DNA from: Burkholderiales bacterium RIFCSPHIGHO2_01_FULL_63_240
GTDB taxonomy: Bacteria > Pseudomonadota > Gammaproteobacteria > Burkholderiales > Burkholderiaceae_C
DNA: 64,000 nt
Assembly (NCBI GenBank): GCA_001770725.1
Contig: MERU01000007.1
Coordinates: 296,924 to 360,923, forward strand
Direction: 5' to 3'
Each line of letters begins with the position of its first letter. Positions within the stretch are counted from its first letter, which is position 1. Below are positions 1 through 20,284 of this stretch, piece by piece. A program made the position numbers and the translations under genes. The notes beneath the pieces are model-generated. The model did not search any database and was not told the origin of the DNA. It saw only the letters and a program-made list of their open reading frames with translations.

Positions 1-678
1 CACGGTCGGCTCGATCTCGCCGACCTGCCCGTCCAGCGGCTTGGGCGGCTGGCCGTCGTTGATCAGGCGCAGGGGGCTTTGGGGGCCCTCCTGGGCCAAG
101 GCGGTGGCAACCAGCGCCTTCTTGTCGTCCACGTACAAGATGCCCTGGCGCCTGAGCTCCTGCCCGATGGCCTGCGTGTGAGCGGGCAGGGTGACCTTGC
201 AGATGTGGGGGTTGATCTCGGTGTCACTCGGCAACTGCAGCCGCTGCACCACCGCCTTGTTGGCCGGCGACCAGGTGTAGAGGTAGGTGTTGCGAGGGTC
301 CGAGGCGTCGGGCTTGGTCGAGGCCCGGCTGAAGTAGGTTTTCTCGTGGCTGCCCTCGGCCACCACGAAGTAATGCTTGCGGGGGTTGGCGCACTTGAGG
401 AAGCCGGCCGCGGTGATGGTGGTCACGCGCTTGGCCTGCAGGTCGATGGTGACGACCTTGGCGTTCCAGTGGTCGTACTTGCCCAGCTCGATGGGGGTGG
501 TGACCAGCAGGGTGGTGTCGTCCACCCACTTGGCCTGGCCCGTCTGCTCCATGATGGGGATGCCCGTCTGGAACCTGTCGAGCTTCATGGTGTCGACCGC
601 GAAGGCAGGGGCGCACGCCAGCACCGAGGCGGCGAAAAGCCACCCCCTGTCGACCATGGACGTGAACGCTGCTTTCAT
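1..678 (-). CDS. Exported protein of unknown function (5' part only, runs off the window)
   Basis: The frame is open from the ATG at 678 down to base 1, giving 226 residues without a stop, so the C-terminus lies outside the window. Residues 1 to about 27 look like a signal peptide: a basic start, a hydrophobic stretch (WLFAASVLACAPAFA) and an Ala-X-Ala type cleavage site before VDTMKLD. The mature part is rich in beta-type segments, such as a run of hydroxy and hydrophobic residues around DDTTLLVTTP and YLYTWSP, and could be a periplasmic beta-propeller-like protein, but this is only an impression. Two cysteines (in LKCANP and HICKV) could form a disulphide. I do not recognise a family. No gene lies directly upstream; about 690 bases without an intact gene follow on that side. 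Confidence 0.75.
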   Translation of the reverse strand, partial: MKAAFTSMVDRGWLFAASVLACAPAFAVDTMKLDRFQTGIPIMEQTGQAKWVDDTTLLVTTPIELGKYDHWNAKVVTIDLQAKRVTTITAAGFLKCANPRKHYFVVAEGSHEKTYFSRASTKPDASDPRNTYLYTWSPANKAVVQRLQLPSDTEINPHICKVTLPAHTQAIGQELRRQGILYVDDKKALVATALAQEGPQSPLRLINDGQPPKPLDGQVGEIEPTV

Positions 679-804
679 GCTGGCCCGCGAGGCACCTGAG
701 TCCGAAAAGACCAAGGTACGGCGAAATGCCGCCGAGCGCGCAACGCCACTGCGGGGTGGCGAGACCTAGTTCATGGATGTGCGGAAAGCGTGGGGCGGGT
801 GTGT

Positions 805-973
805 GCCGAGCTTTGTGTGCGGCGCGTGAACGATGCGGGGTGGTGGGCCGAGCTTTTTGCTCGGCGCGCGCCCCTTTTTGGGGCATGCGTCAGGTGTTGA
901 GCTCGGCTGTTGCTGAAATTTGTAGCAGTGGTGACGTCATTTGATCCACGCGCCGAGTTTGGAGCTCGGTGGG
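805..973. repeat. Three imperfect palindromic 22-base repeats
   Basis: Copies begin at 805, 847 and 952. Copies 1 and 2 agree at 19 of 22 positions and start 42 bases apart; copy 3 agrees with copy 2 at 16 of 22. The core is GCCGAGC, a short T-rich loop and GCTCGGC; copy 2 (847-865) is a perfect 7-base stem with a TTTTT loop, followed at once by a second hairpin (CCCC, TTTTT, GGGG at 871-883). Further GCTCGG half-sites sit at 901 and 999. No protein-coding gene covers this stretch. They may be intergenic hairpin repeats or binding sites; the spacing is too irregular for CRISPR. Confidence 0.6.
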
Positions 974-1175
974 TGGAGCTGTTGGGGGCGTTGGCGGGGC
1001 TCGGAGGGGCGCGTGTCAGTCAATTTGGGCCAGTGGCCGGGGTTTGGGTGCTGATGTCGCGGAACGTGCGACTGCAGTTGCTCAGACTTGTTCACCGCAT
1101 GCGCAAGGTGAGGGGCGAAGGGGGGGCGAGCACTGGCGTCATGGCCCGCGGGAAGCTGCTCATCTGCAGGCCGCA

Positions 1176-1261
1176 GTGCGGCGGGATGCCGAAGGACTGC
1201 TTGAACGAGCGTGTGAATTGGATGGGGAAATGTTGCAGCCTTTGGCTAAAAAGGCCACCGG
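1176..1261 (-). pseudogene. Remnant of an AraC-family regulator (first helix-turn-helix)
   Basis: Read on the minus strand, one frame gives PVAFLAKGCNISP (1261 down to about 1226) and the next frame gives IQFTRSFKQSFGIPPH (down to 1176). Joined, they match the usual AraC-family signature of a helix followed by S-x-x-x-F-x-R-x-F-K-x-x-x-G-x-x-P-H. The break falls in a run of four C residues (1224-1227), and adding one C restores the frame. A TGA lies just upstream of the first part, and the expected second helix-turn-helix is not visible after PPH. It is therefore a decayed fragment, not merely a sequencing slip. The SIR2-domain gene begins its 3' end about 110 bases away at 1370. Confidence 0.65.
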
Positions 1262-1369
1262 TCATTCCTCGTGGGAGGTCGCGTCGAGGGGTGGGCTCAT
1301 GGTGTTTCCAGACGAGCATAAGTTTTGTGGCCGCGGCTTTAGTCACCACTGCGTGAAGGCGCCTTCGAT

Positions 1370-4300
1370 CTAGCTCTGTTCAATAAGATCGATGAGGCGC
1401 AAATAGCGTGAATCCGATGTTAGGTCAGGTCTAACATCAGCGATGAGTGCCAGTACCTCCCTCAATTGATATGAATCACGGGGTACAACAGATGGCGTAA
1501 CTCGGTTAATCAGGTCTAGAGCTGTCTCGGGGTGTTGGGTCGCGAGCGGCGCTTCATCAGAGTACTCCCGAGTGAAGTTGTAGAACGGACCATCGTTTAG
1601 CTCCGTGGGGGTCAAAAATCTCTTCACTGCTTCGTAGACTGCAGGGAAGTATTCGCCGGTGTCATCGAGCATTCCTATCCATGCTCGCGTTGACGCCGAT
1701 GTTCTGTATCTGCGATCTCGTGGCCAGTCTTCGTTGATCAAGGGGATTACATACTGGCTCCAGCCATTTTGGCTTGCTTGTCCAAGCTGGCCTAACGTAA
1801 AAATGAACCGATTGCGTGTTTCGTCAGACATTGAGCGCAAAGCTGAGCGCATTTCGATGCTGGAAAGACCGATCTGCTCATTTGGTTGGAAAACTCGCAT
1901 TGATCCCAGCCATACGGCAGCCACTTCCAAAAGATCATGATCCAAAACGAATTCTTCGATTTTTGGAAATAGATTAACAAGAATGGGTTTGATGATCGCT
2001 GTCAAATCTGGCGAAGGCGCTTGGGTACTGTTGAGAAAACCATTCCATGCTGGTTCTGAAGCTGGGTGGTCTAATGTCAATAATGGTATCAGGAGTTCTT
2101 TAGTCCAGGCGGGGTCGATGAACATGAACCAATTCAGTTGCTGACATGCAATCGACACTGCATGATCCGAGCCCTCGCCTGGGGCAGAAAAGAGACGTTC
2201 GATACGGTGCCTAATGTGTTGTGGAATCAGTGAGCCAGCGCTTCGATTGTCACCGGGCACAGCATGGATGAGTGCATTGACGCACATACCGATCGGTCCG
2301 TTGATAGCGTGATCAAATGTGCGTCGGGACTGTTGAATGATCTCCGCCCCTTGGGAAAATCCTGCGAGGCCGCTCTTCGTGGCATTCGGCTCACTCTTTA
2401 ATAGGCTTTCAGCGATGTGATCGAAGACGAGTAAGCCAAGTTTTTCATCAAAATCAAGGGTCGCTACCAGGTTTTTCTCAATCCATCGACATAGCGTGTG
2501 GTTAAGTTCAGCCACGACCCAGGCGGGAAGTCTCGCAACTCTGCTCAGGAATGCCCGCCGCAATCGCGGTGAAATGTTGTCTGGAAGTGCTGCGATCATG
2601 TCTGACCAGCGCTCTACATCGTGGCGACCCTTTTTTTCGGTAACTGTCAATGCCGCCAGCGCTTTTCTTGGGTTGACTTTCACCAAACCAACAAAAGATC
2701 GTTTCTCCGTAAGGCTACCAAAGCCTCGCCGCAGATCTTCATTCGCTTTTGTAATGATTTCATTTACGGGAAGAGTTAGGAGTTCATCAGGTGTTTCGTC
2801 CGTGCCGACCCATCCGAGATGAGTGCCGTGTTCAACAACGGTAGAGGTCGCCCAGCCGTCATTCCATAACGTAATGCTCATGATCATCGAGGCGAGCCTA
2901 TTGCGCGCATCGTCTGGAAAGTCGCACCCTTGCATTTCGATATAGCGAGCGTATCTGGCTGCTAAATCGTTTCGCCTCATCGGGTAATCTTTGTCAGGAC
3001 ATTGGGGGTGCTGATCTGGTCCTTTCAGAATGCGGTCGATAAGTTGCTCTTGGTTTGCTTTGGGAAAATCTTTCCATCGATCCGTTAACAAAAAGAGAAT
3101 TTCTCTTGTCACGTTGATGTCCCAGAATTCGTCCTGGTTTAGAGACAAGACGGCTTTGGCAACGTCAGCCGCATCAAATACTTCAACTTTGCTGAACGCA
3201 TACAGTTTTAGCTTGCGGAAGTAGAACGGGTCGGTCGTAGGCCATGTCGTTGCATGTGCGTGTGCTAAATCAGGCCATGTGGCAGCCATGCGATCGAACA
3301 GCTGGATAAACCAAGGAACCAGCTTTGCGGCTCCTTGGATGTGAGGCTCCCCGTCGATTTCTCTGCGCGGATAGCATGTAGGTGTTCGAAAGTACATGGT
3401 TTCTATGTCATCCAGCAGCCCTGAGGCGAAAGCCAGCTGATCTTCCAAGATGCTGAACACCTTAGGTAACACACTGTCGGGGATGTCTCTGATTTTGGCT
3501 GGCGGAGCGGTGAACGAAACAGTGCATAGACCTAGATCTCGGAGATGAATCTCCTGCCAGATTGCATTTGGCAGTTTGAACTGGTCTGGGCCGCGCCGGG
3601 GGGTGATTTCCAGTCGCGGTGTTGTAACCCTCCGGAGGTCTCGAAGAATTCTGGCTGTCCAGCCATCCGCCTGCAGTCGGCTCATCAGGTCAAACCAACC
3701 ACTTTCCTGCCAAGGGCCGCTAGAGGATTGCCGCGACTCAAGAATCAGATCCCAGACATGGAGAGCCTGCTTGGGGAGTGCAACTGAGTGCCTAACTTGA
3801 AAGTTGAGTTGTTGCAGCAGCCGCGGATGTAGCCCGTTCTGCCGAATGACCCACCAAGCCACCACCGGACTCTCGATTTGCCTGCTGAGCCAACTGATGA
3901 GGTGATCAAGTCTTCTGGGTGTGGCGCCCACCCCTCCGGGCAGCAGACCGCGCAGTCGATGGATGTCATTTGGGCTGTCATCGTCATTGCGCCAGATGAG
4001 GAGATCCTCGTTACTGATGCCTTGCTGGCGATCAGTCTCCGTGATATCTCTGTGGTCATCATCTAGCCCGTAAGCAACCCTTGGGTCGAAAGACGCTCCA
4101 TCACTGCGTGCGTCGGTGTTGGGTCTGCCGGAGCGAATGCTCGCATCCATCACACATACCCATTCAGGATGTGGTGCTGGTTTTGCCTCAGCAAACGCTC
4201 TAGCACCTTGTACGGTGCGCAGGATATGGGCTACTTGGCCGCGCTCATGAGGGTGCAAGTCTTTTGGATCCTGCTGGCTCATGGCGATGACGGCTGCGCG

Positions 4301-5176
4301 CCACTTGCGCGGATCGTCAGCTCGATCTGCCCATGCCTCTATGCTGCTCCAGAACTTCTCATAGCTGGAAAAAGCTATGGCGGTGACGCCTCGGTCACGC
4401 CATTTGGCTTCGATCTCGTCTGCATTTCCCAGGTCAAACGCATAGAGCCGTGATCGGTCGAACTGTCCATCATGGTTGAGACCTTGTAGAAGGTACTTAA
4501 CGGGAGGATCTTCCGCCTTGTAGCCTACCAAGACGACGGTATACCGATCGAGGAGTTGTCTGATGAAGCTGGTGGCCCAGCCTTCGGAGAGGTAGGCTCG
4601 TCCAAAGTCTGCGCTGCTCAGAATGTACGAGTGACTCTCTGCTTCCACGCCTGCCAATCGACCGTGGAGGTATGTGATCCCTTCAATTTTCGAGTCGAAT
4701 TTCAGGTCTGGGAACTCAGGCGGTTCGTGTAGTTTCAGCGGCATTTCGTCAGCCGTTTCCTCGAACAGCCGATCAAAGTTTGTCGTGACAATCTGCGGTG
4801 CGCCTCTGGAACTGGAAGAGATGCGCTTGAGCAACGCGTGCTCACGTCCAACCGGTTTGCTTGCTGACGCACTTAGTCGTTTCGTGACTAGAGCATTGAC
4901 TTCATCCTTGCCGTACTCAATGTGAAGCAGGTTGAAGATTTGATCGAGTGGGACGTTCGCTGCGGATCGGTTGTTCAACCAAGGTTGAAATGCGACCCTG
5001 ATTTCGGAGTTGGCCGGCGGGGAAAAGAAATCTATTACGTGTTGTGTGAGCTCGACAAAGTCCGGCATGCCAGATGGCATGGAAACGCCAGCCCCGCATA
5101 GAAAAACAACTCGCCCCGCATCGCAGCGGTGCAAGAGGATGTCTGGTATAGATGGGCCGTCAGCATGGAATCTCAT
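1370..5176 (-). CDS. SIR2-domain protein, probable defence-associated sirtuin (DSR1-like)
   Basis: A 1268-residue protein with an N-terminal SIR2-like domain (about residues 10 to 280): GAGVS at 28-32, TTNFD with the presumed catalytic Asn near 133, YLHG with the presumed catalytic His at 171, and VVLVGYKAEDPP around 214-225. Known SIR2 defence proteins of this class hydrolyse NAD+ when a phage is sensed, stopping the infected cell. The remaining 980 or so residues lack motifs I can name; length and layout fit the SIR2 plus DUF4020 type described as DSR1 (from memory, needs a profile search). The ATG at 5176 is chosen because an in-frame TAA lies 12 bases upstream. Composition is unlike the neighbours: 27 G+C in the 60 bases from 2701 against 43 in the 60 from 5701, which suggests transfer. 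It stands alone, beside a decayed regulator. The activity is inferred. Confidence 0.8.
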   Translation of the reverse strand: MRFHADGPSIPDILLHRCDAGRVVFLCGAGVSMPSGMPDFVELTQHVIDFFSPPANSEIRVAFQPWLNNRSAANVPLDQIFNLLHIEYGKDEVNALVTKRLSASASKPVGREHALLKRISSSSRGAPQIVTTNFDRLFEETADEMPLKLHEPPEFPDLKFDSKIEGITYLHGRLAGVEAESHSYILSSADFGRAYLSEGWATSFIRQLLDRYTVVLVGYKAEDPPVKYLLQGLNHDGQFDRSRLYAFDLGNADEIEAKWRDRGVTAIAFSSYEKFWSSIEAWADRADDPRKWRAAVIAMSQQDPKDLHPHERGQVAHILRTVQGARAFAEAKPAPHPEWVCVMDASIRSGRPNTDARSDGASFDPRVAYGLDDDHRDITETDRQQGISNEDLLIWRNDDDSPNDIHRLRGLLPGGVGATPRRLDHLISWLSRQIESPVVAWWVIRQNGLHPRLLQQLNFQVRHSVALPKQALHVWDLILESRQSSSGPWQESGWFDLMSRLQADGWTARILRDLRRVTTPRLEITPRRGPDQFKLPNAIWQEIHLRDLGLCTVSFTAPPAKIRDIPDSVLPKVFSILEDQLAFASGLLDDIETMYFRTPTCYPRREIDGEPHIQGAAKLVPWFIQLFDRMAATWPDLAHAHATTWPTTDPFYFRKLKLYAFSKVEVFDAADVAKAVLSLNQDEFWDINVTREILFLLTDRWKDFPKANQEQLIDRILKGPDQHPQCPDKDYPMRRNDLAARYARYIEMQGCDFPDDARNRLASMIMSITLWNDGWATSTVVEHGTHLGWVGTDETPDELLTLPVNEIITKANEDLRRGFGSLTEKRSFVGLVKVNPRKALAALTVTEKKGRHDVERWSDMIAALPDNISPRLRRAFLSRVARLPAWVVAELNHTLCRWIEKNLVATLDFDEKLGLLVFDHIAESLLKSEPNATKSGLAGFSQGAEIIQQSRRTFDHAINGPIGMCVNALIHAVPGDNRSAGSLIPQHIRHRIERLFSAPGEGSDHAVSIACQQLNWFMFIDPAWTKELLIPLLTLDHPASEPAWNGFLNSTQAPSPDLTAIIKPILVNLFPKIEEFVLDHDLLEVAAVWLGSMRVFQPNEQIGLSSIEMRSALRSMSDETRNRFIFTLGQLGQASQNGWSQYVIPLINEDWPRDRRYRTSASTRAWIGMLDDTGEYFPAVYEAVKRFLTPTELNDGPFYNFTREYSDEAPLATQHPETALDLINRVTPSVVPRDSYQLREVLALIADVRPDLTSDSRYLRLIDLIEQS

Positions 5177-5267
5177 GAGCTCAATTTATCACCCAGATGA
5201 GAGCCATACCGCGCAGAGCAGTTGGGCCTAATGAGCAGCGTTCGGGTTTGACCAAAGAGCGGGATGG

Positions 5268-5293
5268 GTCGGGCGCTATTCGATAGGCCCGAC
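5268..5293. terminator. Strong hairpin between the helicase and SIR2 genes
   Basis: GTCGGGC (5268-5274) pairs with GCCCGAC (5287-5293), and the interior CTAT/ATAG (5276-5279 and 5283-5286) extends the stem with one bulged G and a TCG loop. It lies about 20 bases past the stop of the helicase gene, so it probably ends that minus-strand transcript before the SIR2 gene. The only T-tract (5296-5300) follows it on the plus strand, so classical intrinsic termination of the minus-strand transcript is uncertain. Confidence 0.5.
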
Positions 5294-5312
5294 ACTTTTT
5301 GCTAGCTACCGC

Positions 5313-7616
5313 CTACCCAACCCGCCACCACCCCGGCAACAACCCCCGCACCTCCCCCCGCCCATACCGGTCATCCAGCAGGTGCACCACCCCCTGGTCC
5401 TCGGTCGTCCTGATCACGCGCCCCGCCGCCTGCACCACCTTCTGCAGCCCCGGGTACAGGTAGTGGAAGGCGTAGCCGTCGCCCACGATCTCGTCCAGCC
5501 GCGCCTTGATGTGTTCGTTGACCGGGTTCACCTGCGGCAGGCCCAGCGTGGCAATGAAGGCGCCGATCAGGCGCTGCCCGGGCAGGTCCACCCCTTCTGA
5601 AAACGAGCCGCCCAGCACCGCAAAGCCGATGCCCTGGCTGGTGGGCGTCATGCGGGCCAGGAAGGCGCGCTGCGCTTCTTCGCTCATGCCGCGCTGCTGG
5701 CGCACGACCGGCACGTCGGGGTGCGCGCGCTCGAAGTGATCGGCCACGTCCTGCAGGTAGTCGTGGCTGCTGAAAAACGCCAGGTAGTTGCCAGGCCGCG
5801 CGCGGAACTGCTCGGCCATCAGCGCCACCATCGCCTCGCGTGAGCGGGCCCGGTCGGCAAAGCGCGTCGAGATGTGGCGCGCCACCTTCACCTGCAGTTG
5901 CTCGGCCGAAAACGGCGACGCCACCTCGATGGCCACGCTGCCCTCCGGCGTGCCCAGCAGCGTCTCGAAAAAGTGCGTGGGCTGCAGCGTGGCCGAGAAC
6001 AGCGTCACGCTGTGCGCTTGCTCAAGCCGGCTTTGCAAAAAAGGCGCGGGCAGCACGTTGCGGATGCACAAGGTCGATCGCAGCTTGCGCGTGGACGCCA
6101 GCGAGCCTGCCTCGGGCGCCCAGTCGAACAGCGAGTGGCTGCCGAAGCTGTCGGCCAGCTTGCTCATCTGCAGGCACTCGAAGTAGAAGCTTTGCAGGTC
6201 GGGGTCGACCTCGGTGGGGTGCTCGGCCATGTGGTCGCCAATGGCCGCGCACAGTTGCTGCAAGGCCAGCAGCCAGCCGGCGGGGATGTCGGGCAGCACG
6301 CGGTAGGTGGGCGCGTCGCCCTCTGCGCTGGTCAGTGCCTTGTTGATGCCCAGCCAGGCTCGGTGCAGCTTGTCCAAAGGCTTCTTGAGCGCGGTGGGCC
6401 CGTGGTGGCGCATGCCCTGCAGCGAAGACTGATGCAGCTCGCAGCTGAACATCTTGCGCCCGCGCTCGACCAGGTTGTGCGCCTCGTCCACCAGCACGCC
6501 CGCGCGCCACTGGCTTTGCTGCATCAGGCCGTGCAGCAGCGCGGTCTGGTCGAAGTAGTGGTTGAAGTCACCCACCACCACGTCGGCCCAGCGCACCAGC
6601 TCCTGGCTCAGGTAGTAGGGGCACACCTGGTGGGCCAGCGCGATGGCGCGCACCGCTTCATGCGTCAGGCTGCCTGTGGCGGCGGCCTGTGCGCGGGCGG
6701 CGGGCAGGCGGTCGTAAAAGCCCTGGGCCAGCGGGCACGATTGCCCGTGGCAAGCGCGGTCGGGGTGCTCGCAGGCTTTGTCTTTGGCGCGCAGCTCCAG
6801 CTCGCGCAACCGCAGCGTGGGGTGGTGCGCGCGCAGGGTCGCGATGGCGTGCAGGGCGGCGGCGCGGCCCGAGGTCTTGGCTGTCAGGAAGTAGACCTTG
6901 TCCAGCCCCTGCGTGGGGCAGGCCTTGAGCAGGGGGAACACGGTGCCGATGGTCTTGCCGATGCCCGTGGGCGCCTGGGCCAGCAGGCATCGGCCCGTGG
7001 CGGCGGCCTTGTAGACCGACTCGGCCAACTCGCGCTGGCCCGCGCGGAACTGCGGGTGCACGAAGGTCATCGCTGTGAGGCTGTCGTCGCGCGCGCGGCG
7101 GTGGGCCAGCTCTTGTTCGGCCCAGGCAGCAAAGCGCTCGCACACGTCGGCGAAGTGGGCTTGCAGCTCGGCCGCGCTGTGGCGCTCGCAGAGCACCGTC
7201 TCTTTCTGCGAGCCCACCTCGAAGTACACCAGCGCCACGTCGATGTGTTCGAGCCCGCGCTCGCGGCACAGCAAGGCGCCGTAGACCTTGGCCTGTGCCC
7301 AGTGCAGGTGGCGGTGGTTGTCGGGGATGGCGTCCACCAGGCCTTTGTGGGTCTTGACCTCTTCGACGCGGTTGAGCTGCGGGTGGTAGCCGTCGGCGCG
7401 GCCTTTGACGCTCAGCAGGCCGTGTTGACCGCTGAGCGCGACTTCGCTTTGGTAGCCGGCTGGCCGGCGCGCGGCCACCAGCGCGTGCCCGGCGATGCCT
7501 TCCTGCGCGGTGGGCGTGGGCGTGAAGCGCAGGTCCAGGTCGCCTTGCTTGGCCACGAACTCGCACAGCTCGCGCACGCCGACCTGGTAGCGGGGCGTGT
7601 CACTCGGGGTCGGCAT
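5313..7616 (-). CDS. XPD/DinG-type DNA helicase with N-terminal RecB/Cas4-like nuclease domain
   Basis: A 767-residue protein. Residues 1 to about 175 carry the motif set of RecB/Cas4-type PD-(D/E)XK nucleases: His44, Asp75 (GRADGY), Glu86-x-Lys88 and Gln108-x3-Tyr112. A superfamily 2 helicase of the XPD/DinG group follows: Walker A APTGIGKT (215-222), four cysteines placed like an iron-sulphur ligand set (282, 289, 294, 332), DEAH box at 377-380, and a C-terminal QAAGRVIR motif. The expected activity is ATP-driven 5'-3' unwinding coupled to DNA cleavage. The ATG at 7616 is chosen because the longer frame upstream runs over the preceding gene, whose coding frame is clear; the two then overlap by 17 bases, suggesting translational coupling. 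A LexA box precedes the pair. The role (repair, recombination or defence) is not shown by the sequence. Confidence 0.85.
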   Translation of the reverse strand: MPTPSDTPRYQVGVRELCEFVAKQGDLDLRFTPTPTAQEGIAGHALVAARRPAGYQSEVALSGQHGLLSVKGRADGYHPQLNRVEEVKTHKGLVDAIPDNHRHLHWAQAKVYGALLCRERGLEHIDVALVYFEVGSQKETVLCERHSAAELQAHFADVCERFAAWAEQELAHRRARDDSLTAMTFVHPQFRAGQRELAESVYKAAATGRCLLAQAPTGIGKTIGTVFPLLKACPTQGLDKVYFLTAKTSGRAAALHAIATLRAHHPTLRLRELELRAKDKACEHPDRACHGQSCPLAQGFYDRLPAARAQAAATGSLTHEAVRAIALAHQVCPYYLSQELVRWADVVVGDFNHYFDQTALLHGLMQQSQWRAGVLVDEAHNLVERGRKMFSCELHQSSLQGMRHHGPTALKKPLDKLHRAWLGINKALTSAEGDAPTYRVLPDIPAGWLLALQQLCAAIGDHMAEHPTEVDPDLQSFYFECLQMSKLADSFGSHSLFDWAPEAGSLASTRKLRSTLCIRNVLPAPFLQSRLEQAHSVTLFSATLQPTHFFETLLGTPEGSVAIEVASPFSAEQLQVKVARHISTRFADRARSREAMVALMAEQFRARPGNYLAFFSSHDYLQDVADHFERAHPDVPVVRQQRGMSEEAQRAFLARMTPTSQGIGFAVLGGSFSEGVDLPGQRLIGAFIATLGLPQVNPVNEHIKARLDEIVGDGYAFHYLYPGLQKVVQAAGRVIRTTEDQGVVHLLDDRYGRGEVRGLLPGWWRVG

Positions 7617-8487
7617 GGGGCGCGGGGGGCGCTTGGCCTTCGCGGCCTTCGTTGACTTCGTCGTGGTCCGCGTTGGCCAGCTCGGCCTGGCTGCGCTCAA
7701 GCGGTCGCCTGACGGGCGAGGCCTTGGCCAGCGCCATCCACACGTCAAAGGGCAGGGTGCAGGGCGCGTGGCGGGCGGGGCGCAGCATCTCCAGCCGGCC
7801 GGTTTCGACGTCGCCGTGGATGACCCACACGCCGAGTTCCTCGGGCAGCTCTTGCGGCTCGGCCAGGCCGTGGGGGAAGACGTAGTGGCACTCGCTGGCC
7901 AGCCACTGGTAGGAGCTGCGCTTGGCCTGGTGGCGCAGGTCGGACAGCAGGTCGGCGCGGCTGACCTTGATCTCGTGCACCACGGGGTGCAGGTAGTTGG
8001 GGTTGCTGGTGCGCCGCACCGAGAACAGGTCGGGGCGGGCCAGGCGCCAGCGGTGGGGCTTGCCGCTGGGGTCGGTCGGGTCGCTGGCGTCGCTTGTGTC
8101 GTCGTCCCACAGCGGTGTGGGCTCGCCAGCTTGAACCACCGCGGCGGTGCCGTCATCGGGCGCGCCTGCTTGCTCTGCTTCCACCTTGGCGCGCAGCGAC
8201 AGCTCGTGCCACACCAGCCGCCCGGCATCCATCAGCACCTCCGTCATGCGCAGGGCGAGCTTGTCGTGGTCGCTTTCCGAGCGGCGTTGGGCCTGGCGGC
8301 TTTGCGCCAGCAGCGCGATGCCCGCGTCGGTCAGGCGCAGGCATTCGTTGGCGGGGTGCTCGCCCACCAGGCTCACCCAGCCGGCGGCCAGCAGATCGAT
8401 GTCGATGGGGTCTCGGCTGGGCCAGCCGGCCGATCGCCAGATCTTCATCAGGCGCGACAGGTGCGCCCGCGTGGGCTTGGGGGTCAC
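7600..8487 (-). CDS. PD-(D/E)XK nuclease-like protein with putative winged-helix N-terminus
   Basis: The GTG at 8487 is chosen because AAGGA lies about 9 bases upstream; a longer GTG start at 8517 has no ribosome site. The 295-residue product begins with a region that looks like a winged helix (residues 5 to 65, with LTDAGIALLA near the end), then a low-complexity acidic linker (about 108-145), then a nuclease-like core: Pro152-Asp153, then HEIKVSRADLLSDLR with Glu172-x-Lys174, the PD-(D/E)XK pattern. The EIKVSRxDLxxDLR segment resembles the MmcB family of LexA-regulated putative repair endonucleases (from memory). It is the first gene of a two-gene unit, overlapping the helicase gene by 17 bases. 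A LexA box about 80 bases upstream argues for SOS induction. The nuclease activity is inferred from motifs. Confidence 0.7.
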   Translation of the reverse strand: MTPKPTRAHLSRLMKIWRSAGWPSRDPIDIDLLAAGWVSLVGEHPANECLRLTDAGIALLAQSRQAQRRSESDHDKLALRMTEVLMDAGRLVWHELSLRAKVEAEQAGAPDDGTAAVVQAGEPTPLWDDDTSDASDPTDPSGKPHRWRLARPDLFSVRRTSNPNYLHPVVHEIKVSRADLLSDLRHQAKRSSYQWLASECHYVFPHGLAEPQELPEELGVWVIHGDVETGRLEMLRPARHAPCTLPFDVWMALAKASPVRRPLERSQAELANADHDEVNEGREGQAPPAPHADPE

Positions 8488-8564
8488 GGCGGAGGTCCTT
8501 GAGGGGGCACGCAGCACAGGCCGCAGGTGGGCCTGTTCGGGGCGTCACGACAATGTGCAACAAG

Positions 8565-8584
8565 TGCTGTACAAATATACAGCA
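8565..8584 (-). promoter_or_regulatory. LexA (SOS) box upstream of the nuclease/helicase pair
   Basis: TGCTGTACAAATATACAGCA matches the classic CTGT-N8-ACAG LexA box, with the dyad extended by two bases on each side (16-base core at 8567-8582). It lies between the end of arsA (8619) and the start of the nuclease gene (8487), about 80 bases upstream of that start, the usual place for promoter repression. It should make the nuclease/helicase operon respond to DNA damage. Confidence 0.85.
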
Positions 8585-8618
8585 TCCAGGGGCAGCCCTC
8601 GCCGACGATGGCAGCCGA

Positions 8619-10373
8619 TCAGCCCTGCAGCAGCTGCGCCAGACCGTCCAGCCCGACGGGGGGCTTCGGCGCCCACGGGATCAAAAAGATGCGCTTCGCC
8701 AGCCCCGCCTCGATGCGGGCCAACTGCTGCCGCTCGCCTTGCAGGCGCGCGCGCAGAACCGGGTCTCGCGTGTGCGACGCCAGGATGGACTTGTTGACCA
8801 CCCAGGCATGGGGCTCGATGTGCGCGCGGCGCAGGTCGTCCTGCAGGGCGGCCGCTTGGGACACCGGCGTGGTCTCGGGCAGCGTGACCAGGATGATGCG
8901 GGTGTAGCTGGCGTCTTGCAGCCGCATCAGCGGCGTCACCAGGTGCGCGGCCGACTTGCCCTCGTACTCGCGGGTCATCTGCCGGTGGTAGGCGCCGGTG
9001 GCGTCCATCAGCAGCAGGGAGTGTCCGGTGGGCGCCGTGTCGAGCACCACGAAGGCGCTGCGCGCGGCGGACACCGTGCGCGAGAAGGCGTGGAACACCG
9101 CCACCTCTTCGGTGCAGGGCGATTGCAGGTCTTCGAGCAGCAGTGCTTTTTCCTGCGCATCGAGGCGAGCGCCCCGGGTGGCCATGACCTTGTCGATGTA
9201 GTGCTGGGTCTCGGCCTTCGGGTCGATGCGGCTGACATCCAGGCCGGGCAATTGCCCTTCCAGCGTGGAAGCCAGGTGGGCCGCCGGGTCGGTCGTGCTC
9301 AGGTGCACGGCGTGGCCACGCTGCACCAGCCCGACGGCGAGTGCGGCCGCGACGGTCGTTTTGCCGACGCCACCCTTGCCCATCACCATGATGAGCCCCT
9401 TGCCCGCCACGGCCAGCTCGTCCACCAGCTTGTCGATGCCGTCGGCTTTCGCGGCGTGCGCTGCGTTGTCCGCCTCCGGGGGCATCGTCAGCGCGGCTTG
9501 GTCGTCAAGCAGGGCGCGCAGGGCCGCCAGGCCCACGGTGTCGAAGGTGCGCAAGGGCACGCGGGCCTGGGGCAGCGCCTTCAGTGGCGCTGGCATGGCA
9601 TCGATGGCGTCCTGGTTCAACCGTTCAAGCGCGTCGGCCAGGGCATCGCCCGACACCGAGGCGCGGAACACGCCATTGACGACGAGGTGCTGCCTGCACA
9701 GGCCCAGCTCGCGCAGTTCGCCGCTGGTGCGCGCGGCCTCGTTGAGCGAGCCGGCGTCGGCGCGCGCCACCAACACGACCGTGGTGCGTTGTTCGTCACT
9801 CAAAGCGGCCAGCGCCGCATTGAAACGCGCTTCCTGCATCTTCAAGCCGGAGTGAGGCCCCAGACACGAAGCGCCGCGGTCGTTGTCCTTGAGGAAGCCG
9901 CTCCAGGCCTTGGGCAGGCTGAGCAGGCGCAGCGTGTGGCCCGTGGGCGCGGTGTCGAAGACCACGTGGTCGTAGGCCGAGGCGCCGTCGCTGAGCAGGC
10001 TGGAGAACTCGTCGAAGGACGCGATCTCGGTCGTGCAGGCGCCAGAGAGTTGCTCGCGCACCGTCTCGCGTTCTTGCTCGGTGCTGTGGGCCGCCATCTG
10101 CGACAGCACGCGCTGGCGATAGTCCTCGGCCGCCACGTTGGGGTCGATGTTGAGGACGGACAGGCCAGGGACCCCAGGCACGGGCGTGGCCGCGTTGCTC
10201 AACTGCACGCCCAGCATCTCATCGAGGTTGGATGCCGCATCGGTGCTGACAAGCAGCACGCGCGAACCACCATCGGCCAGCTGGATGGCGGTGGCGGTCG
10301 ACAGGGATGTCTTGCCCACACCGCCCTTGCCGGTGAAGAAGACGTATCGGGTCGGCGATGGCAACAGCTTCAT
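8619..10373 (-). CDS. arsA: ArsA arsenical pump-driving ATPase
   Basis: A 584-residue protein with two homologous ATPase halves. The first Walker A is GKGGVGKT (15-22), and a second GKGGVGKT lies in the C-terminal half; each half has the DTAPTGHT signature. Three cysteines sit where the metalloid site is expected: Cys113 (GACTTE), Cys170 (GASCLGP) and one in SPCTEEVAVF, corresponding to Cys113, Cys172 and Cys422 of the plasmid R773 enzyme. ArsA binds As(III) or Sb(III) and drives export through ArsB. The ATG at 10373 has AGGAG just upstream and is preferred over a start 30 bases earlier. No arsR, arsD, arsB or arsC is adjacent, so the membrane partner must be encoded elsewhere, or the protein serves another cargo. 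Confidence 0.93.
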   Translation of the reverse strand: MKLLPSPTRYVFFTGKGGVGKTSLSTATAIQLADGGSRVLLVSTDAASNLDEMLGVQLSNAATPVPGVPGLSVLNIDPNVAAEDYRQRVLSQMAAHSTEQERETVREQLSGACTTEIASFDEFSSLLSDGASAYDHVVFDTAPTGHTLRLLSLPKAWSGFLKDNDRGASCLGPHSGLKMQEARFNAALAALSDEQRTTVVLVARADAGSLNEAARTSGELRELGLCRQHLVVNGVFRASVSGDALADALERLNQDAIDAMPAPLKALPQARVPLRTFDTVGLAALRALLDDQAALTMPPEADNAAHAAKADGIDKLVDELAVAGKGLIMVMGKGGVGKTTVAAALAVGLVQRGHAVHLSTTDPAAHLASTLEGQLPGLDVSRIDPKAETQHYIDKVMATRGARLDAQEKALLLEDLQSPCTEEVAVFHAFSRTVSAARSAFVVLDTAPTGHSLLLMDATGAYHRQMTREYEGKSAAHLVTPLMRLQDASYTRIILVTLPETTPVSQAAALQDDLRRAHIEPHAWVVNKSILASHTRDPVLRARLQGERQQLARIEAGLAKRIFLIPWAPKPPVGLDGLAQLLQG

Positions 10374-10450
10374 GGAGGCTCCTCTGGTTTGATGTTGCCT
10401 CAACCGGGCAGCTTGTTCCGTGATCCATCACAAGCTGCGATGACCGGGCC

Positions 10451-10578
10451 TCACTCCTTGGCCACCGCCTCCACCTGGATGCGCAGGGTCACGTTCATGT
10501 TGAAGCCCCAGTCCTTGCCCGCGCCGTGGGCGGTGCAGCCAGGGCGAGCCGGGCGGTGGTGAGCAGCAGCCGTTTCAT
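10451..10578 (-). pseudogene. Gutted YceI-like gene: signal-peptide start joined to C-terminal tail
   Basis: An ATG at 10578 with AGGA upstream opens a signal-peptide-like start (MKRLLLTTARLALAA). About 50 bases later the +1 frame reads GKDWGFNMNVTLRIQVEAVAKE and stops at 10451. That tail resembles the last strand of YceI-family lipid-binding periplasmic proteins, which normally have about 190 residues. The two ends appear to be all that remains after an internal deletion that also broke the frame (128 bases, not a multiple of three). Family assignment rests on a short match. Confidence 0.5.
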
Positions 10579-10665
10579 GGTGGGTCCTGGGGGGCACCAT
10601 CTTCGCATGACCAGGGGGCGCCCTGGCATCGAGCAAACTACGGGGAAACACACCAGGGACCCACG

Positions 10666-12090
10666 ATGAACACACCACTCACCCGCCGCCACGTGCTCGT
10701 GCAGGCTTTGGTTGGCGCCGGCCTCGTTGCTGCGCCCGGCTTGCCTCATGTGCTCGCCGCCCCCGACCTGCTGGTGGCCAACGTGACGCGGCTCTACAGC
10801 GTTCGGGTGGCCCGCATCGCCACGCCGCGCTCGGCCGACGATGTGGCCAAGTCCATCGCAGCCTGGCCTGGTCGGGTGGCCGTTGGGGGCGGGCGCTACA
10901 GCATGGGCGGACAGGTGGCCGTTGAAGGTGGCTTGCACCTGGACATGCGCCAGATGAACCAGTTGGTCTGGCTGAACGCAGCTGAGCAGAAGGTGCGCGT
11001 GCAGGCCGGCATGCGCTGGCGCGACCTGCAGTCCCTCATCGACCCGCAAGGCCTGGCCGTCAAGACCATGCAGAGCTACGCCAACTTCACGGTGGGCGGC
11101 GCGGTGTCGGTCAACGCGCACGGGCGTTACGTGGGCAACGGGCCGGTGGGGCATTCGGTGCGCGCGCTGCAGATGGTGCTGGCCGATGGCAAGGTGGTCG
11201 AAGCCAGCCGGAGGCAGAACCCGCAGCTGTTCCAGGCGGCCTTGGGCGGCTATGGCGCGGTCGGCGTCATCACCGAGGTGGAGCTGGACCTGGTGCCCAA
11301 CGAGCGCATGGAGCGCGTCGTTCAGGCCGTGCGGCTGGAGGACTACCCCGCCTTCTTCCGCGCCCGCGTGCAGGCCGATCCGGCCAGCCTGATGCACAAC
11401 GCCGACCTGATGCCGCCGCGCTTTGACGAGCCGGTGTCGGTCACCTGGCGACGCACGGACAAGGCGCTCACCGAGCCCGCGCGCCTGGTGGCCGAAGGCC
11501 AGCGCTACAGCCTGGAGCAGAACATGATCTGGCTGATGACCGAGGTGCCTGGCGCCGAGGGCCTGCGCAAATCGGTGGTGCACCCGCTGCTAAACAAGGC
11601 CCCGGCGGTGGTGTGGCGCAACCACGAAGCCAGCCTCGACGTGGCCGAGCTGGAGCCGCGCACGCGGCGCATGTCCACCTATGTGCTGCAGGAGTACTTC
11701 GTGCCGCCGAGGCACTTCGTGGCCTTTGCGCGGGGCATGGCCCAGGTGCTGCGCGAGCACGACGTGGAGGCGCTGAACGTGTCCATCCGCCACTCACCGG
11801 CTGATGTGGACTCGCTGCTGCCGTGGGCCAAGGAAGAGGTGTTCTCGTTCGTGCTGTATCACAAGCAGCGCACCCACGCGCGGGTGCAAAAGGCCGTGGG
11901 CGTGTGGACGCGCGTGCTGATCGACCTGGTGTTGCGGTGCGAAGGGCGTTACTACTTGCCTTACCAGTTGCACGCCACGCAGCGGCAGTTCGACCAGGCC
12001 TACCCGGAAGCGCGGGCCTTGCGTGAGCTCAAGCAGCGTGTGGACCCGAAGGGGGTGTTTGCAAACGAGTTGTGGGCGAAGCATCTTTGA
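10666..12090 (+). CDS. Tat-exported FAD-binding oxidoreductase (lactone/sugar oxidase family)
   Basis: A 474-residue protein. Residues 1-31 form a likely Tat signal (TRRHVLVQ, hydrophobic stretch, LPHVLA). The FAD-binding PCMH domain follows: GGGRYSMGGQ at about 74-83, then MRWRDLQSLIDPQGLAV and NFTVGGAVSVNAHGR, the pattern of the vanillyl-alcohol oxidase/D-arabinono-lactone oxidase superfamily. The C-terminal half fits the substrate-binding domain of the lactone oxidase group. Many relatives bind FAD covalently through a His in the GGRHS segment; here that position is Tyr78, so this kind of linkage is probably absent. AGGGA precedes the ATG. It has no functional neighbours: the decayed YceI-like gene lies upstream and a convergent GST gene starts 24 bases after its stop. 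The substrate is unknown. Confidence 0.8.
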   Translation: MNTPLTRRHVLVQALVGAGLVAAPGLPHVLAAPDLLVANVTRLYSVRVARIATPRSADDVAKSIAAWPGRVAVGGGRYSMGGQVAVEGGLHLDMRQMNQLVWLNAAEQKVRVQAGMRWRDLQSLIDPQGLAVKTMQSYANFTVGGAVSVNAHGRYVGNGPVGHSVRALQMVLADGKVVEASRRQNPQLFQAALGGYGAVGVITEVELDLVPNERMERVVQAVRLEDYPAFFRARVQADPASLMHNADLMPPRFDEPVSVTWRRTDKALTEPARLVAEGQRYSLEQNMIWLMTEVPGAEGLRKSVVHPLLNKAPAVVWRNHEASLDVAELEPRTRRMSTYVLQEYFVPPRHFVAFARGMAQVLREHDVEALNVSIRHSPADVDSLLPWAKEEVFSFVLYHKQRTHARVQKAVGVWTRVLIDLVLRCEGRYYLPYQLHATQRQFDQAYPEARALRELKQRVDPKGVFANELWAKHL

Positions 12091-12114
12091 TGTGAGCCAG
12101 GGCGCAAGCCTGCC

Positions 12115-12783
12115 TCAGCTTGACATGCGCCCACTCAGGGCCGTCCCCCGAGCCCGCAGGAACCGTCGCAGGGATTCGGCGTAATCCGGCCGCACGGCCT
12201 GCGCCACCGAGGGCCTGCAGGCCAGCGCGCTGCGCCAGGCCTGCAGCTTGGGCAAACCGGTCCACCAGCCGAAATCTGCCACCTCGTCGATGACGTCGAA
12301 GTAGCGCAGGGCGGGGCCGAACACCGCATCCACGATGCTGAAGCTCTCGCCGGCAAAGAAGGGCCCTTCGCCCAGCGCCGCTTCAAGCTGCGCGAAGCGA
12401 GCGCGGATGTCTGCGGCGCGTGCCAGCAAGGCAGGCTCATCTGGCGCGTTGTAGAAGGCCCCGATGAGGTTGAGCAAGGTCGAGCCGAACTCCATCCACG
12501 CGCGGTGCCTGGCCCGCTGCAGTGCGTTGGCGGGGTGAAGCCGAGGCAAGGCGGTGTCCTCCAGGTACTCGCAGATCACCGCGGACTCGAAGATGGCCTC
12601 GCCATCCACCAGCAGCACCGGTGTCTTGCCCAGGGGCGAGACCGCCAAAAACCAGTCCGGCTTGTTGGCCAGGTCGATGTCTCGCCGCTCGAAGGCGATG
12701 CCCTTTTCTGCCAGCACGATGGCGGCACGCTGCACATAGGGGCACAAGGCGTGTGAAATCAGGGTCAGTCGGGGGGTGTTCAT
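12115..12783 (-). CDS. Glutathione S-transferase
   Basis: A 222-residue protein with the GST fold in order: a thioredoxin-like N-terminal domain (LISHALCPYVQRAAIVLAEKG, then LGKTPVLLVDG and the glutathione gamma-glutamyl motif ESAVICEYLED) and an all-helical C-terminal domain containing FAGESFSIVDAVFGP, the usual N-capping region. The CPY motif near residue 14 suggests a Cys-type active site, as in the omega and beta classes. It would conjugate glutathione to an electrophile or reduce a disulphide; the substrate is unknown. It is divergent from the LysR-type gene at 12876 with 92 bases between the starts, so that regulator may control it. Confidence 0.9.
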   Translation of the reverse strand: MNTPRLTLISHALCPYVQRAAIVLAEKGIAFERRDIDLANKPDWFLAVSPLGKTPVLLVDGEAIFESAVICEYLEDTALPRLHPANALQRARHRAWMEFGSTLLNLIGAFYNAPDEPALLARAADIRARFAQLEAALGEGPFFAGESFSIVDAVFGPALRYFDVIDEVADFGWWTGLPKLQAWRSALACRPSVAQAVRPDYAESLRRFLRARGTALSGRMSS

Positions 12784-12875
12784 CTCAAGTCGTCCGCAAA
12801 GGGGTGGTGTGAGGCGAATTTATGATTGCAGGCAGGAAATGAAAACAGGCCATCTGGCAAACAAGGATTGCGAAC

Positions 12876-13748
12876 ATGCAATACAAGCTGACCCCCGCCG
12901 ACCTGGAGGTGGCGCTCGCCCTGAGCCGCTTCGGCACGCTCGCATCGGCGGGTGAGCGGCTGGGCGTGGATGCCTCCACCGTCTTTCGCGCGCTGCAACG
13001 CGTCGAGCGTGGCCTGGGCCAGCGCCTGTTCGAGCGGACCCGCTCGGGCTACGTTGCCAACGAGTTGGGCGTGGACCTGGCCGAGCAGGCCGAGCGCATG
13101 GAGCAGGCCCTGGAAGCGGCGCGCTCTCGTGTGGAGGCGACCCCGGCGCAGCTTTCAGGCACGGTGCGCATCACGACGACGGACACCATCCTCCATGGGC
13201 TGGTGGCGCCCGCGCTGCGCGACCTGGGCCGGCTGCACCCTTTGCTGCACCACGAGCTCCACACGGGCAACGAGCTGGCGAGCCTGACGCGGCGCGATGC
13301 CGACATCGCGGTGAGGGCCACCCGGCGCCCACCACAGCACCTGGTGGGCAAACAGATCGGGCCCATCAAGGTGGCGGTCTACGCCGCCAGGCGAGGGGGC
13401 GCGCGCCTGTTTGCCGACGTGGAGGCAGGTCGGTGCGACTGGATCGCCCCGGACGACGCCTTGCCCGACCACCCGTCCGTCACCTGGCGAAAGCGGCACT
13501 TCCCGAAGGTGCTGCCGCGCTATCGCGTCAACAGCATCCTGTCGGTGCTGGAGCTGGTGGCCCTGGGTTTGGGCGTGGGCATCGTGCCCCTGTTCCTGGT
13601 CGAGGGGCGCAAGGACGTGGTCCGCCTGACCGAACCCTTGGACGAATGCGAGACCGACCTGTGGTTGTTGACGCACCCTGAGTCGCGCCACCTGCGCCGG
13701 GTGGGCGCTGTGTACACGCACCTGGCTCAGGCGTTGAAACTGCCCTGA
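12876..13748 (+). CDS. LysR-family transcriptional regulator
   Basis: A 290-residue protein with an N-terminal winged helix (residues 4 to 62: ALALSRFGTLASAGERLGVDASTVFRALQRVERGLGQRLFERT) and a periplasmic-binding-like effector domain from about residue 90 (GTVRITTTDTILHGLVAPAL). The start ATG has AAGGA about 9 bases upstream. Serine in DASTVFRAL is the usual recognition-helix position. It is divergent from the glutathione S-transferase gene, a common arrangement for a LysR regulator and its target. Length is normal for the family. The effector is unknown. Confidence 0.9.
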   Translation: MQYKLTPADLEVALALSRFGTLASAGERLGVDASTVFRALQRVERGLGQRLFERTRSGYVANELGVDLAEQAERMEQALEAARSRVEATPAQLSGTVRITTTDTILHGLVAPALRDLGRLHPLLHHELHTGNELASLTRRDADIAVRATRRPPQHLVGKQIGPIKVAVYAARRGGARLFADVEAGRCDWIAPDDALPDHPSVTWRKRHFPKVLPRYRVNSILSVLELVALGLGVGIVPLFLVEGRKDVVRLTEPLDECETDLWLLTHPESRHLRRVGAVYTHLAQALKLP

Positions 13749-13770
13749 CCGAAGGTGAGCAGGGCGCGAT

Positions 13771-14964
13771 TCAGAAAAACGCCTGAATCCCCGTCTGCGC
13801 GCGCCCCAGGATCAAGGCATGCACGTCGTGCGTGCCCTCGTAGGTGTTGACCACCTCGAGGTTGACCAGGTGCCGCGCCACGCCGAACTCGTCGCTGATG
13901 CCGTTGCCGCCCATCATGTCGCGCGCCAGCCGGGCGATGTCCAGCGCCTTGCCGCAGTTGTTGCGCTTCATGATGGACGTGATCTCGACCGCGGCCGTGC
14001 CTTCGTCCTTCATGCGGCCCAGGCGCAGGCTGCCTTGCAGGCCCAGGGCGATCTCGGTCTGCATGTCGGCCAGCTTCTTTTGAATCAGCTGGTTGGCGGC
14101 CAGCGGGCGGCCGAACTGCTGGCGGTCGAGCACGTACTGGCGCGCGCGGAACCAGCAGTCTTCGGCCGCGCCCATGGCGCCCCACGAGATGCCGTAGCGC
14201 GCGCTGTTCAGGCAGGTGAAGGGGCCTTTCAAGCCGCGCACCTCGGGGAAGGCGTTTTCTTCGGGCACGAACACGTCGTCCATCACGATCTCGCCGGTGA
14301 TGCTGGCGCGCAGGCCCACCTTGCCGTGGATGGCGGGGGCGCTCAGGCCTTGCCAGCCCTTTTCCAGCACGAAGCCGCGGATCTGGTCTCGGCCGTTTTC
14401 TTCACACTGCGCCCAGACCACGAACACGTCTGCGATCGGCGAGTTGCTGATCCACATCTTGCTGCCGCGCAGCGTGTAGCCGCCGTCCACCTTGGTGGCG
14501 CGCGTGAGCATGCTGGCCGGGTCGGAGCCGTGGTTGGGCTCGGTGAGACCAAAGCAGCCGATGAACTCGCCGGTGGCCAGCTTGGGCAGGTACTTGCGTT
14601 TGGTGGCTTCGTTGCCGAAGGCGTTGATGGGCACCATGACCAGCGACGATTGCACGCTCATCATCGAGCGGTAGCCGGAGTCCACGCGTTCGACCTCGCG
14701 GGCGATCAGGCCGTAGCTCACGTAGTTCAGGCCCGCGCCACCGTACTCGGTCGGGATGGTGGCGCCCAGCAGGCCCAGCTCGCCCATCTCGCGGAAGATG
14801 GCCGGGTCGGACTGCTCGTTGCGAAAGGCCAGGGTCACGCGCGGCAGCAGCTTGCCTTGCGCGTAGTCGCGCGCGGCGTCCTTGATCATGCGTTCTTCCT
14901 GCGTGAGCTGGTCGTCCAGCAGCAGGGGGTCGGCCCAGTTGAAGGTGGCTTTGCTGGTGCTCAT
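13771..14964 (-). CDS. gcdH: Glutaryl-CoA dehydrogenase
   Basis: A 397-residue flavoprotein of the acyl-CoA dehydrogenase family. It shows the GcdH signatures: [20 protein letters not shown] at the N-terminus, [16 protein letters not shown] in the middle, and [24 protein letters not shown] at the end, with the catalytic Glu in YEGTHD. It oxidises and decarboxylates glutaryl-CoA to crotonyl-CoA. The ATG at 14964 is used because it gives the family's usual N-terminus; an extension to 15027 would overlap the preceding gene. It is the last gene of the six-gene catabolic operon, 29 bases after the CoA ligase. This makes sense if the upstream genes shorten odd-chain dicarboxylates to glutaryl-CoA. 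Confidence 0.92.
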
Positions 14965-14993
14965 GTGGGGTCTCGCTTGTGTTCTGTTGGGGT

Positions 14994-16667: not shown

Positions 16668-16706
16668 GGCGGCGATGTTACGTGGGCTGCGAGCGTTGGA
16701 GAGCGA

Positions 16707-17840: not shown

Positions 17841-17850
17841 GGCTTGGTCC

Positions 17851-19041: not shown

Positions 19042-19069
19042 GGCGGGCCTCCTGGTTGAAGGTCTGTTG

Positions 19070-20284
19070 TCAGTAGATTTCGAACAAGCCCGCGGCGCCC
19101 ATGCCACCGGCGATGCACATCGTCACCACGGCCCATTTCACGCTGGGGTCCCTGGCCTTGCGCCGGCGGCCTTCGAGCAGCACCGTGCCCACCAGGCGCG
19201 ACCCCGTCATGCCGAACGGGTGGCCGATGGAGATGGCGCCACCGTTGACGTTCAAGCGTTCATCGGGGATGCCGAGCTTTTGCTGGCAATGGATCGACTG
19301 CGATGCGAAGGCCTCGTTGAGCTCCCACAGGTCGATGTCTTCCACTTTCAGGCCATGCCGAGCCAGCAGCTTGGGCACGGCGAACACCGGACCGATGCCC
19401 ATCTCGTCGGGCTCGCAGCCGGCCACCGCCAGGCCCCGGAAGGCGCCCAGCGCTTGCAGGCCCAGGCGCTCGGCCTCGCGGCGCTCCATCAGCACACAGG
19501 CCGACGCGCCGTCCGACAGCTGCGAGGCGTTGCCCGCGGTGATGAACTGATCGGCCCCGCGCACGGGCTCGAGTTTGGCCAATGCTTCGTAGGTGGTGCC
19601 CGGGCGGTTGCAGGTGTCGTGGTCGATGGTGGCCTGCACGTGCGTCACTTCTTTGGTGGCCTTGTCCTGCACGGCCATGGTGGTCGTGATGGGCACGATC
19701 TCGTCTCGGTAGCGCCCGGCCTGCTGTGCTTCGGCCGTCTTGCGCTGGCTCTCGACCGAGAAGCGGTCCTGCGCCTCGCGCGAGATGCCGTAGCGCTGCG
19801 CCACGATGTCGGCGGTCTCGATCATGGCCATGTACAGCGCGGGCTTGTGTTCAACGATCCAGGGGTCGAGCCCCGAGTTGCCGTCTTCCCGCGTGCGGAT
19901 GCCCGAGATGCTCTCGATGCCCCCGGCGATCATGGCGGTCGCGCCATCGACCACGATGCGCCCGGCGGCCATCGCGATCGCCTGCAGGCCCGAGGCGCAG
20001 AAGCGGTTGACCGTGGTGCCCGCGATGCTCAGCGGCAGCTCGCTGCGCACGATGCTTTGCCGCGCGATGTTGCGGCCCGTCGTGCCTTCCGGGTAGCCGC
20101 AGCCGAGGATGCAGTCCTCGATCAGCCCAGGGTCGATGCCCGCGCGCTCGACCGCGGCCCTGACCGCGAACGAGGCCAGCGTGGGTCCCGGCGTGATGTT
20201 GAGCTCGCCTCGGTGCGACTTGGTCAGCGGCGTGCGTGCGGTCGAGACGATGACCGCTTCGCGGGCGTGTTGAGAAGGGTGCAT
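19070..20284 (-). CDS. Acetyl-CoA acyltransferase (beta-ketothiolase)
   Basis: A 404-residue thiolase with all three active-site elements: the acyl-accepting Cys in [11 protein letters not shown], the His in [13 protein letters not shown], and the C-terminal Cys in [17 protein letters not shown]. It cleaves 3-ketoacyl-CoA with CoA, releasing acetyl-CoA. The start ATG at 20284 follows the 3-hydroxyacyl-CoA dehydrogenase gene by 76 bases, and the acyl-CoA dehydrogenase gene follows by 28 bases, all in one direction. It matches PimB in role, although it could serve ordinary fatty acids. Confidence 0.92.

Follow-up and report, generated by a model that had tools for sequence, protein, structure and literature searches.

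A LexA-like box, kinship with MmcB and exchange with FAN1 suggest a crosslink-processing role for an EndoDinG-type helicase gene and its overlapping partner

Introduction

EndoDinG is the name that a 2025 review gives to proteins joining a nuclease to a DinG helicase, a subgroup of the DinG-like proteins, and the sections of that review available to us cite unpublished data for endonuclease activity of the Bdellovibrio member (PMC11981726). Here we describe a gene of this kind, together with the gene that overlaps its start (hereafter gene 1), in a stretch of 64,000 nucleotides, the window, from Burkholderiales bacterium RIFCSPHIGHO2_01_FULL_63_240 (GenBank assembly GCA_001770725.1, contig MERU01000007.1, positions 296,924 to 360,923). 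We judge it fairly probable that the two genes form a module, inducible by the SOS response, for processing DNA interstrand crosslinks or similar lesions that block replication. Dna2 also fuses a Cas4-like nuclease to a helicase, which in Dna2 belongs to superfamily 1 and here is of the XPD/DinG type.

Several described systems bear on this locus, and we draw on the passages of their papers that were available to us. FAN1 acts in crosslink repair as a structure-selective nuclease (PMC4103454). Ultraviolet C light and ciprofloxacin induce PA1865, the FAN1 gene of Pseudomonas aeruginosa, and hydrogen peroxide represses it (PMC12796719). The MmcB protein of Caulobacter, an SOS-regulated PD-(D/E)XK endonuclease, protects the cell from mitomycin C and cisplatin (PMC9578287). 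In Arabidopsis, FAN1 and FANCJB, an iron-sulphur helicase of the XPD family, are epistatic for mitomycin C and so belong to a single pathway (PMC6550410). Finally, gene neighbourhoods have linked SRAP proteins to SOS operons (PMC3765255).

Results

The helicase gene is, on the evidence of its domains and motifs, a case of the known EndoDinG architecture. Pfam finds both DEAD_2 (PF06733) and Helicase_C_2 (PF13307) in the protein, and residues 11-765 align full-length with PDB entry 9kqh_A (E 8.4e-106); its whole layout is common to that structure and to EndoDinG as the review presents it, with an alanine of 9kqh standing opposite D75. According to section 3.7 of the review, the PD-(D/E)XK domain of EndoDinG is marked by a conserved set of H, E, D, E and K (PMC11981726), and here H44, E58, D75, E86 and K88, as well as Q108 and Y112, are invariant across 14 rows, the query included. 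In the same rows the XPD/DinG-type helicase keeps its Walker lysine K221, the DEAH box D377-E378-A379-H380 and the four cysteines of an iron-sulphur domain. A first-pass annotation, made from the sequence of this stretch, had proposed the fusion of a PD-(D/E)XK nuclease to an XPD/DinG-type helicase and had singled out H44, D75, E86, K88, Q108, Y112 and K221; all of this holds, as do the gene order, strand and overlap that it gave (Table 1). It had also called the system uncharacterised, which does not fit the helicase fusion, since that already has a name. What our literature searches did not find described, namely the family of gene 1 and the way it and FAN1 replace each other, could not be seen in that annotation.

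Table 1. Features of the locus, in coordinates of the window
Feature	Positions	Strand	Remarks
Gene 1	7600..8487	minus	295 amino acids; winged-helix and MmcB-like PD-(D/E)XK protein
EndoDinG-type nuclease-helicase gene	5313..7616	minus	767 amino acids
Overlap of gene 1 and helicase gene	7600..7616	minus	17 bases
Gene 1 winged-helix domain, MarR-like	8272..8484	minus	residues 2-72
Gene 1 MmcB-like PD-(D/E)XK core	7714..8271	minus	about residues 73-258; E95, D153, E172, K174
N-terminal RecB/Cas4-like nuclease domain of helicase gene	7122..7586	minus	about residues 11-165; H44, E58, D75, E86, K88; aligned with 9kqh_A; end approximate
Iron-sulphur domain cysteines	6621..6773	minus	C282, C289, C294, C332; invariant in 14 rows
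XPD/DinG-type helicase region	5322..7067	minus	residues 184-765; PF06733, PF13307; PADLOC typeIV_DinG over 184-763
LexA-like (SOS) box CTGTATATTTGTACAG	8567..8582	.	exact; ends 80 bases before the GTG of gene 1

The position directly upstream of EndoDinG is often held by one of two nuclease genes. Among the best 80, by score, of 594 confirmed EndoDinG loci, 43 have FAN1 and 15 have gene 1 as the upstream gene; 22 have neither there, and no locus has both. Fifty of these 80 genomes, chosen by class and including related species that are not independent, were searched whole. VRR_NUC, the nuclease domain of FAN1, was found in 13 of 13 FAN1-type genomes, 0 of 15 gene-1-type genomes and 2 of 22 with neither partner, and gene-1-like proteins in 0 of 13, 15 of 15 and 9 of 22, respectively; FAN1 and gene 1 occur together in none of the 50. 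The nine matches in genomes with neither partner are partial and score like a diverged second group described below, and in one of the two such genomes with VRR_NUC (L121/G775) each gene sits at the end of a contig, and the pair may therefore be split. The helicase start is overlapped by FAN1 in 41 of 44 pairs and by gene 1 in 24 of 27 (relatives included in both counts, one genome being listed twice in the second), the commonest overlap being 4 bases.

FAN1 (domains FAN1_HTH, SAP and VRR_NUC) therefore resembles gene 1 in its place upstream of EndoDinG and in its gene overlap, and also in the LexA-like box and in combining a helix-turn-helix part with a nuclease of the PD-(D/E)XK superfamily. 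The two differ in nuclease family, and gene 1 is half the length of FAN1 and has no VRR_NUC match in Pfam, nor does the whole genome G000. A quick tree of 99 helicase rows shows the FAN1, gene-1 and neither states clustered beyond shuffles. One supported group (98), made up of Comamonadaceae, Sphaerotilaceae and near kin, holds 24 of the 27 gene-1 rows and 8 rows with neither partner, and the remaining three gene-1 rows fall in another group. The FAN1 rows, 44 in number, are spread over Pseudomonadaceae, Halomonadaceae, Alcanivoracaceae, Oxalobacteraceae and further families. The gene-1 label changes six times, at least four of the changes being forced by starred branches. As the root of the tree is arbitrary, we infer the direction of exchange, FAN1 displaced by gene 1, from the wider spread of FAN1. 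The EndoDinG genes of Cupriavidus and Nitrosospira (L143, L149, L152, L176 and L182) lie in genomes where neither FAN1 nor a gene-1-like protein was found.

Gene 1 encodes a MarR-like winged helix and a nuclease core remotely related to MmcB (PF06319). Direct searches, taken to E 1 for Pfam, assigned it to no Pfam, NCBIfam or PDB family. The kinship appears in profile comparisons: hhalign of gene 1 against MmcB gives 95.3% and E 2.1e-8, and the gene-1 profile matches both a PF06319 protein of genome G138 (3.3e-4) and a bridging protein, L208 (1.1e-13), which itself matches PF06319 at 4.7e-9. Across 53 gene-1 and MmcB-like rows, distant relatives included, D153, E172, K174, D179 and D183 are invariant and E95 is nearly so. 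D153 and K174 belong to the PD-(D/E)XK pattern that the first-pass annotation had recognised, and the possible DNA-binding domain that it mentioned corresponds to the winged helix. MmcB was found by Pfam in 20 of 100 genomes of the phylum, 15 of the 20 rows entering alignment A3, and in none of 56 genomes of the class. The homologous PD-(D/E)XK core is what MmcB and gene 1 have in common; MmcB has 160 amino acids against about 295, and gene 1 adds the winged helix and the pairing with EndoDinG. A counterpart to the SOS control of MmcB is predicted for gene 1 from its LexA-like box.

A structural model of gene 1 has, upon re-alignment, the same fold as the solved MmcB member 3dnx (SPO1766), a match that is not independent of the MmcB rows. 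For this model, which is good, Foldseek gave no PDB match at E 0.001 or better, and 3dnx was not among the 50 matches listed; profile A4 searched against PDB matched only an unrelated protein, at E 0.57 or higher. A first model built from 18 close sequences was poor (predicted local distance difference test score 52.7) and was not used, and a PADLOC match at E 0.016 was weak and taken as chance. The start codon is a GTG with AAGGA in front, and the starts of orthologues correspond.

Gene-1-like proteins were found in 7 of 300 genomes sampled from the order. A second, diverged group of them (L196:3115-3960, L198:4642-5574 and L207:1498-2232) occurs in genomes of the same family and does not lie beside EndoDinG in the stretches opened. 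A 160-residue MmcB-like protein (L210:587-3161) has a DUF4400 gene on one side and a TraG/TraD-type gene on the other, surroundings that resemble a conjugation region. Divergent gene-1 relatives, below 60% identity (15 are listed at 28.5-30.5%), are present on 17 plasmid records. Conjugative plasmids of Polaromonas and Burkholderia carry two diverged relatives annotated as hypothetical proteins, L222:5959-6744 and L223:5995-6660. Neither has an annotated DinG/XPD-type helicase within 6 kilobases, and one of the two neighbourhoods has a superfamily I helicase-like gene.

Among 61 close relatives, gene 1 is present in 19, a strong helicase match in 19 and both in 13, a co-occurrence with Fisher p 5e-5 when relatedness is ignored. 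The two genes are adjacent in 12 of these 13 and lie on different contigs in the other (G036). The survey of gene neighbourhoods that the first-pass annotation had called for thus finds, with the overlaps counted above, a pairing above chance. Six relatives with gene 1 lack an intact helicase gene (G002, G008, G010, G018, G026 and G027), and six have the helicase without gene 1 (G006, G012, G014, G022, G024 and G043); G014 is 53% complete and its helicase gene is at a contig end. VRR_NUC occurs in two of the 61, in G043, where FAN1 overlaps the helicase gene, and in G010, where the match is partial (54 positions). In G008, G010 and G026, an SRAP gene stands in front of gene 1 and overlaps it by 4 bases. 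The helicase frame of G026 (L070:8418-9602) leaves the family after about 70 codons and continues as unrelated sequence, a 394-residue frame with no Pfam match; the SRAP gene and gene 1 in front of it are intact.

LexA-like boxes are strongly enriched before FAN1 and gene-1 operons. The box of the window is an exact CTGT-N8-ACAG palindrome. An exact box precedes 13 of 33 gene-1 genes (10 more are near-exact), 28 of 44 FAN1 genes (3 more) and 2 of 3 SRAP genes (1 more). The corresponding counts are 1 of 26 (2 more near-exact) for helicase genes counted as partnerless, which include L199, whose partner was missed by the gene caller, and L074, with gene 1 on another contig, and 25 of 787 (5 more near-exact) for other genes used as a control, which include divergent neighbours that share a site. 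Three of the ten boxless gene-1 genes have a box before the SRAP gene in front. An earlier count of exact boxes over a wider range, made on the best 80 of 594 loci, gave 3 of 13 for gene 1, 26 of 43 for FAN1, 2 of 20 for neither and 85 of 4000 for random stretches. The gene 1 operon is probably under SOS control, as the boxes before its orthologues suggest.

Nine further box sites of the genome were opened. One precedes lexA, one a SulA-domain gene read as ImuA-like and one a radical-SAM gene, and at another (L192:1047-2175) the box is shared by the starts of two back-to-back genes, one for a UmuD-like S24 peptidase and one for SRAP. At the other five, whose genes were not family-scanned, no repair gene was recognised by eye.

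Discussion

We favour an SOS-inducible crosslink-processing module as the best reading of the pair because the evidence on MmcB, FAN1, PA1865, FANCJB/FAN1 epistasis and SRAP combines in its favour. Building on what the sequence holds (the pair, its overlap and motifs, the box, the kinship with MmcB and the exchange with FAN1), we propose a model in which LexA, bound at the box, would be cleaved after damage, turning the operon on. The winged helix of gene 1 would then hold duplex or junction DNA while its MmcB-like PD-(D/E)XK centre cuts beside the lesion, here taken to be a crosslink, the job that FAN1 would do in relatives whose operon has the same plan. EndoDinG, its synthesis coupled to that of gene 1 through the overlapping genes and possibly in contact with it, would load on the exposed strand, unwind it 5' to 3' and, in a later cut, trim or cleave the displaced strand with its own nuclease. 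The end result would be a gap for translesion synthesis or recombination.

It is tempting to extend this model across the Proteobacteria, as a LexA-controlled crosslink-unhooking module of a structure-specific nuclease and an XPD-type nuclease-helicase, a counterpart of FAN1-FANCJ, in which a winged-helix MmcB-type family has displaced FAN1 in Comamonadaceae, Sphaerotilaceae and near kin; we regard the chances of this wider proposal as evenly balanced. If true, two unrelated nucleases serve one helicase. The plant FAN1-FANCJ branch differs in being eukaryotic and in having no operon, and FANCJ is not known to carry a Cas4-like nuclease. FAN1 is of medical importance in humans and has relatives in bacteria, and partners of the bacterial protein are not named in the literature searched. 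An overlapping operon with a clean FAN1 exchange would give a small genetic system for testing how helicase and nuclease cooperate at crosslinks, and a testable role would follow for EndoDinG and for the gene-1 family, which has no Pfam or NCBIfam entry.

What appears to be new is the partner family, the operon plan that it has in common with FAN1 and the exchange; the fusion helicase itself is already known. Literature searches, outside which most subscription papers lay, returned no description of a FAN1-EndoDinG operon, of the gene-1 family or of the exchange. The name FAN1 occurs 0 times in the text of the EndoDinG review, whose available passages name no operon partner (PMC11981726), and a search of the available text of PMC4103454 did not find helicase, operon or neighbour terms.

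Several observations weigh against the crosslink module. The two genes stand apart in 12 of the 61 relatives and together in 13, so that neither gene needs the other, and the first-pass annotation, which had counted homologues apart as often as together as a point against the pair, gets a mixed answer. Similarly, 11 of the 22 partnerless EndoDinG loci lie in genomes with neither nuclease at the thresholds used, and therefore the helicase can work alone. PF06319 is reached at E 1 or better by 0 of 24 gene-1 members. An exact box is expected 0.82 times by chance in a 64-kilobase window, and the 4.12-megabase genome has 19 exact boxes against 24 for a reversed control pattern; relevance of the box was accordingly rejected as not significant from window or genome alone, and only the comparison of orthologues counts. 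PA1865 and PA1866 are both named as damage-responsive and are placed outside the known LexA, Prt and Alp regulons, according to the passages available (PMC12796719).

Among the roles that the first-pass annotation had offered, repair gains from the LexA-like box, the FAN1 exchange, the MmcB kinship and the three SRAP operons; end resection is possible, with no evidence that singles it out, and defence has little in its support. The foremost alternative, to which we give a distinctly lower but real chance, is general processing of ends and forks of the Dna2/AddAB type: the pair would be induced by damage, and its targets would be breaks and stalled forks rather than chiefly crosslinks, gene 1 serving to trim branched ends. 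The exchange specifically with FAN1 and the kinship with MmcB point instead to crosslinks.

Defence against phages or plasmids, by an independent nuclease-helicase pair or the relic of a type IV CRISPR helper, seems improbable to us. Nuclease-helicase pairs are known in defence, as in Hachiman so far as the material available to us describes it, and helicase residues 184-763 match the PADLOC model typeIV_DinG (PDLC01439) at 2.2e-113, the other typeIV_DinG models matching weakly. That model, however, spans no nuclease domain, the FAN1 form of the operon and the LexA-like box are ill-suited to defence, and gene 1 has no phage match. A gene related to Dsr1, of the SIR2 type, lies 136 bases downstream of the helicase gene, but in G016, G033 and G028, the three closest relatives, the pair has no such neighbour. 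PADLOC gave weak ATPase matches only on six neighbouring genes, no cas model was matched in those six or in the neighbour at 1370-5176, and positions 1-20000 of the window have no closely spaced direct repeats.

We think it very unlikely that gene 1 is mainly a DNA-binding loader or repressor whose nuclease centre is minor while EndoDinG does the cutting: its MarR-like winged helix and the nuclease already present in EndoDinG would suit such a role, but D153, E172 and K174 are invariant in 53 of 53 rows. Just as remote is the idea that the two are unrelated damage-response genes, sharing an operon but not cooperating, since, although each occurs without the other in six of the 61 relatives, the genes overlap in most pairs and gene 1 is replaced by another nuclease at exactly the same place.

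The neighbour at window positions 1370-5176 (minus strand) encodes a 1268-residue SIR2-domain protein related to Dsr1, with 343 bits to NCBIfam NF041818 (cut-off 1400) and 2.7e-89 to PADLOC Dsr1. It has no cluster mate in the regions of 25 relatives compared, and its gene is probably a separate insertion.

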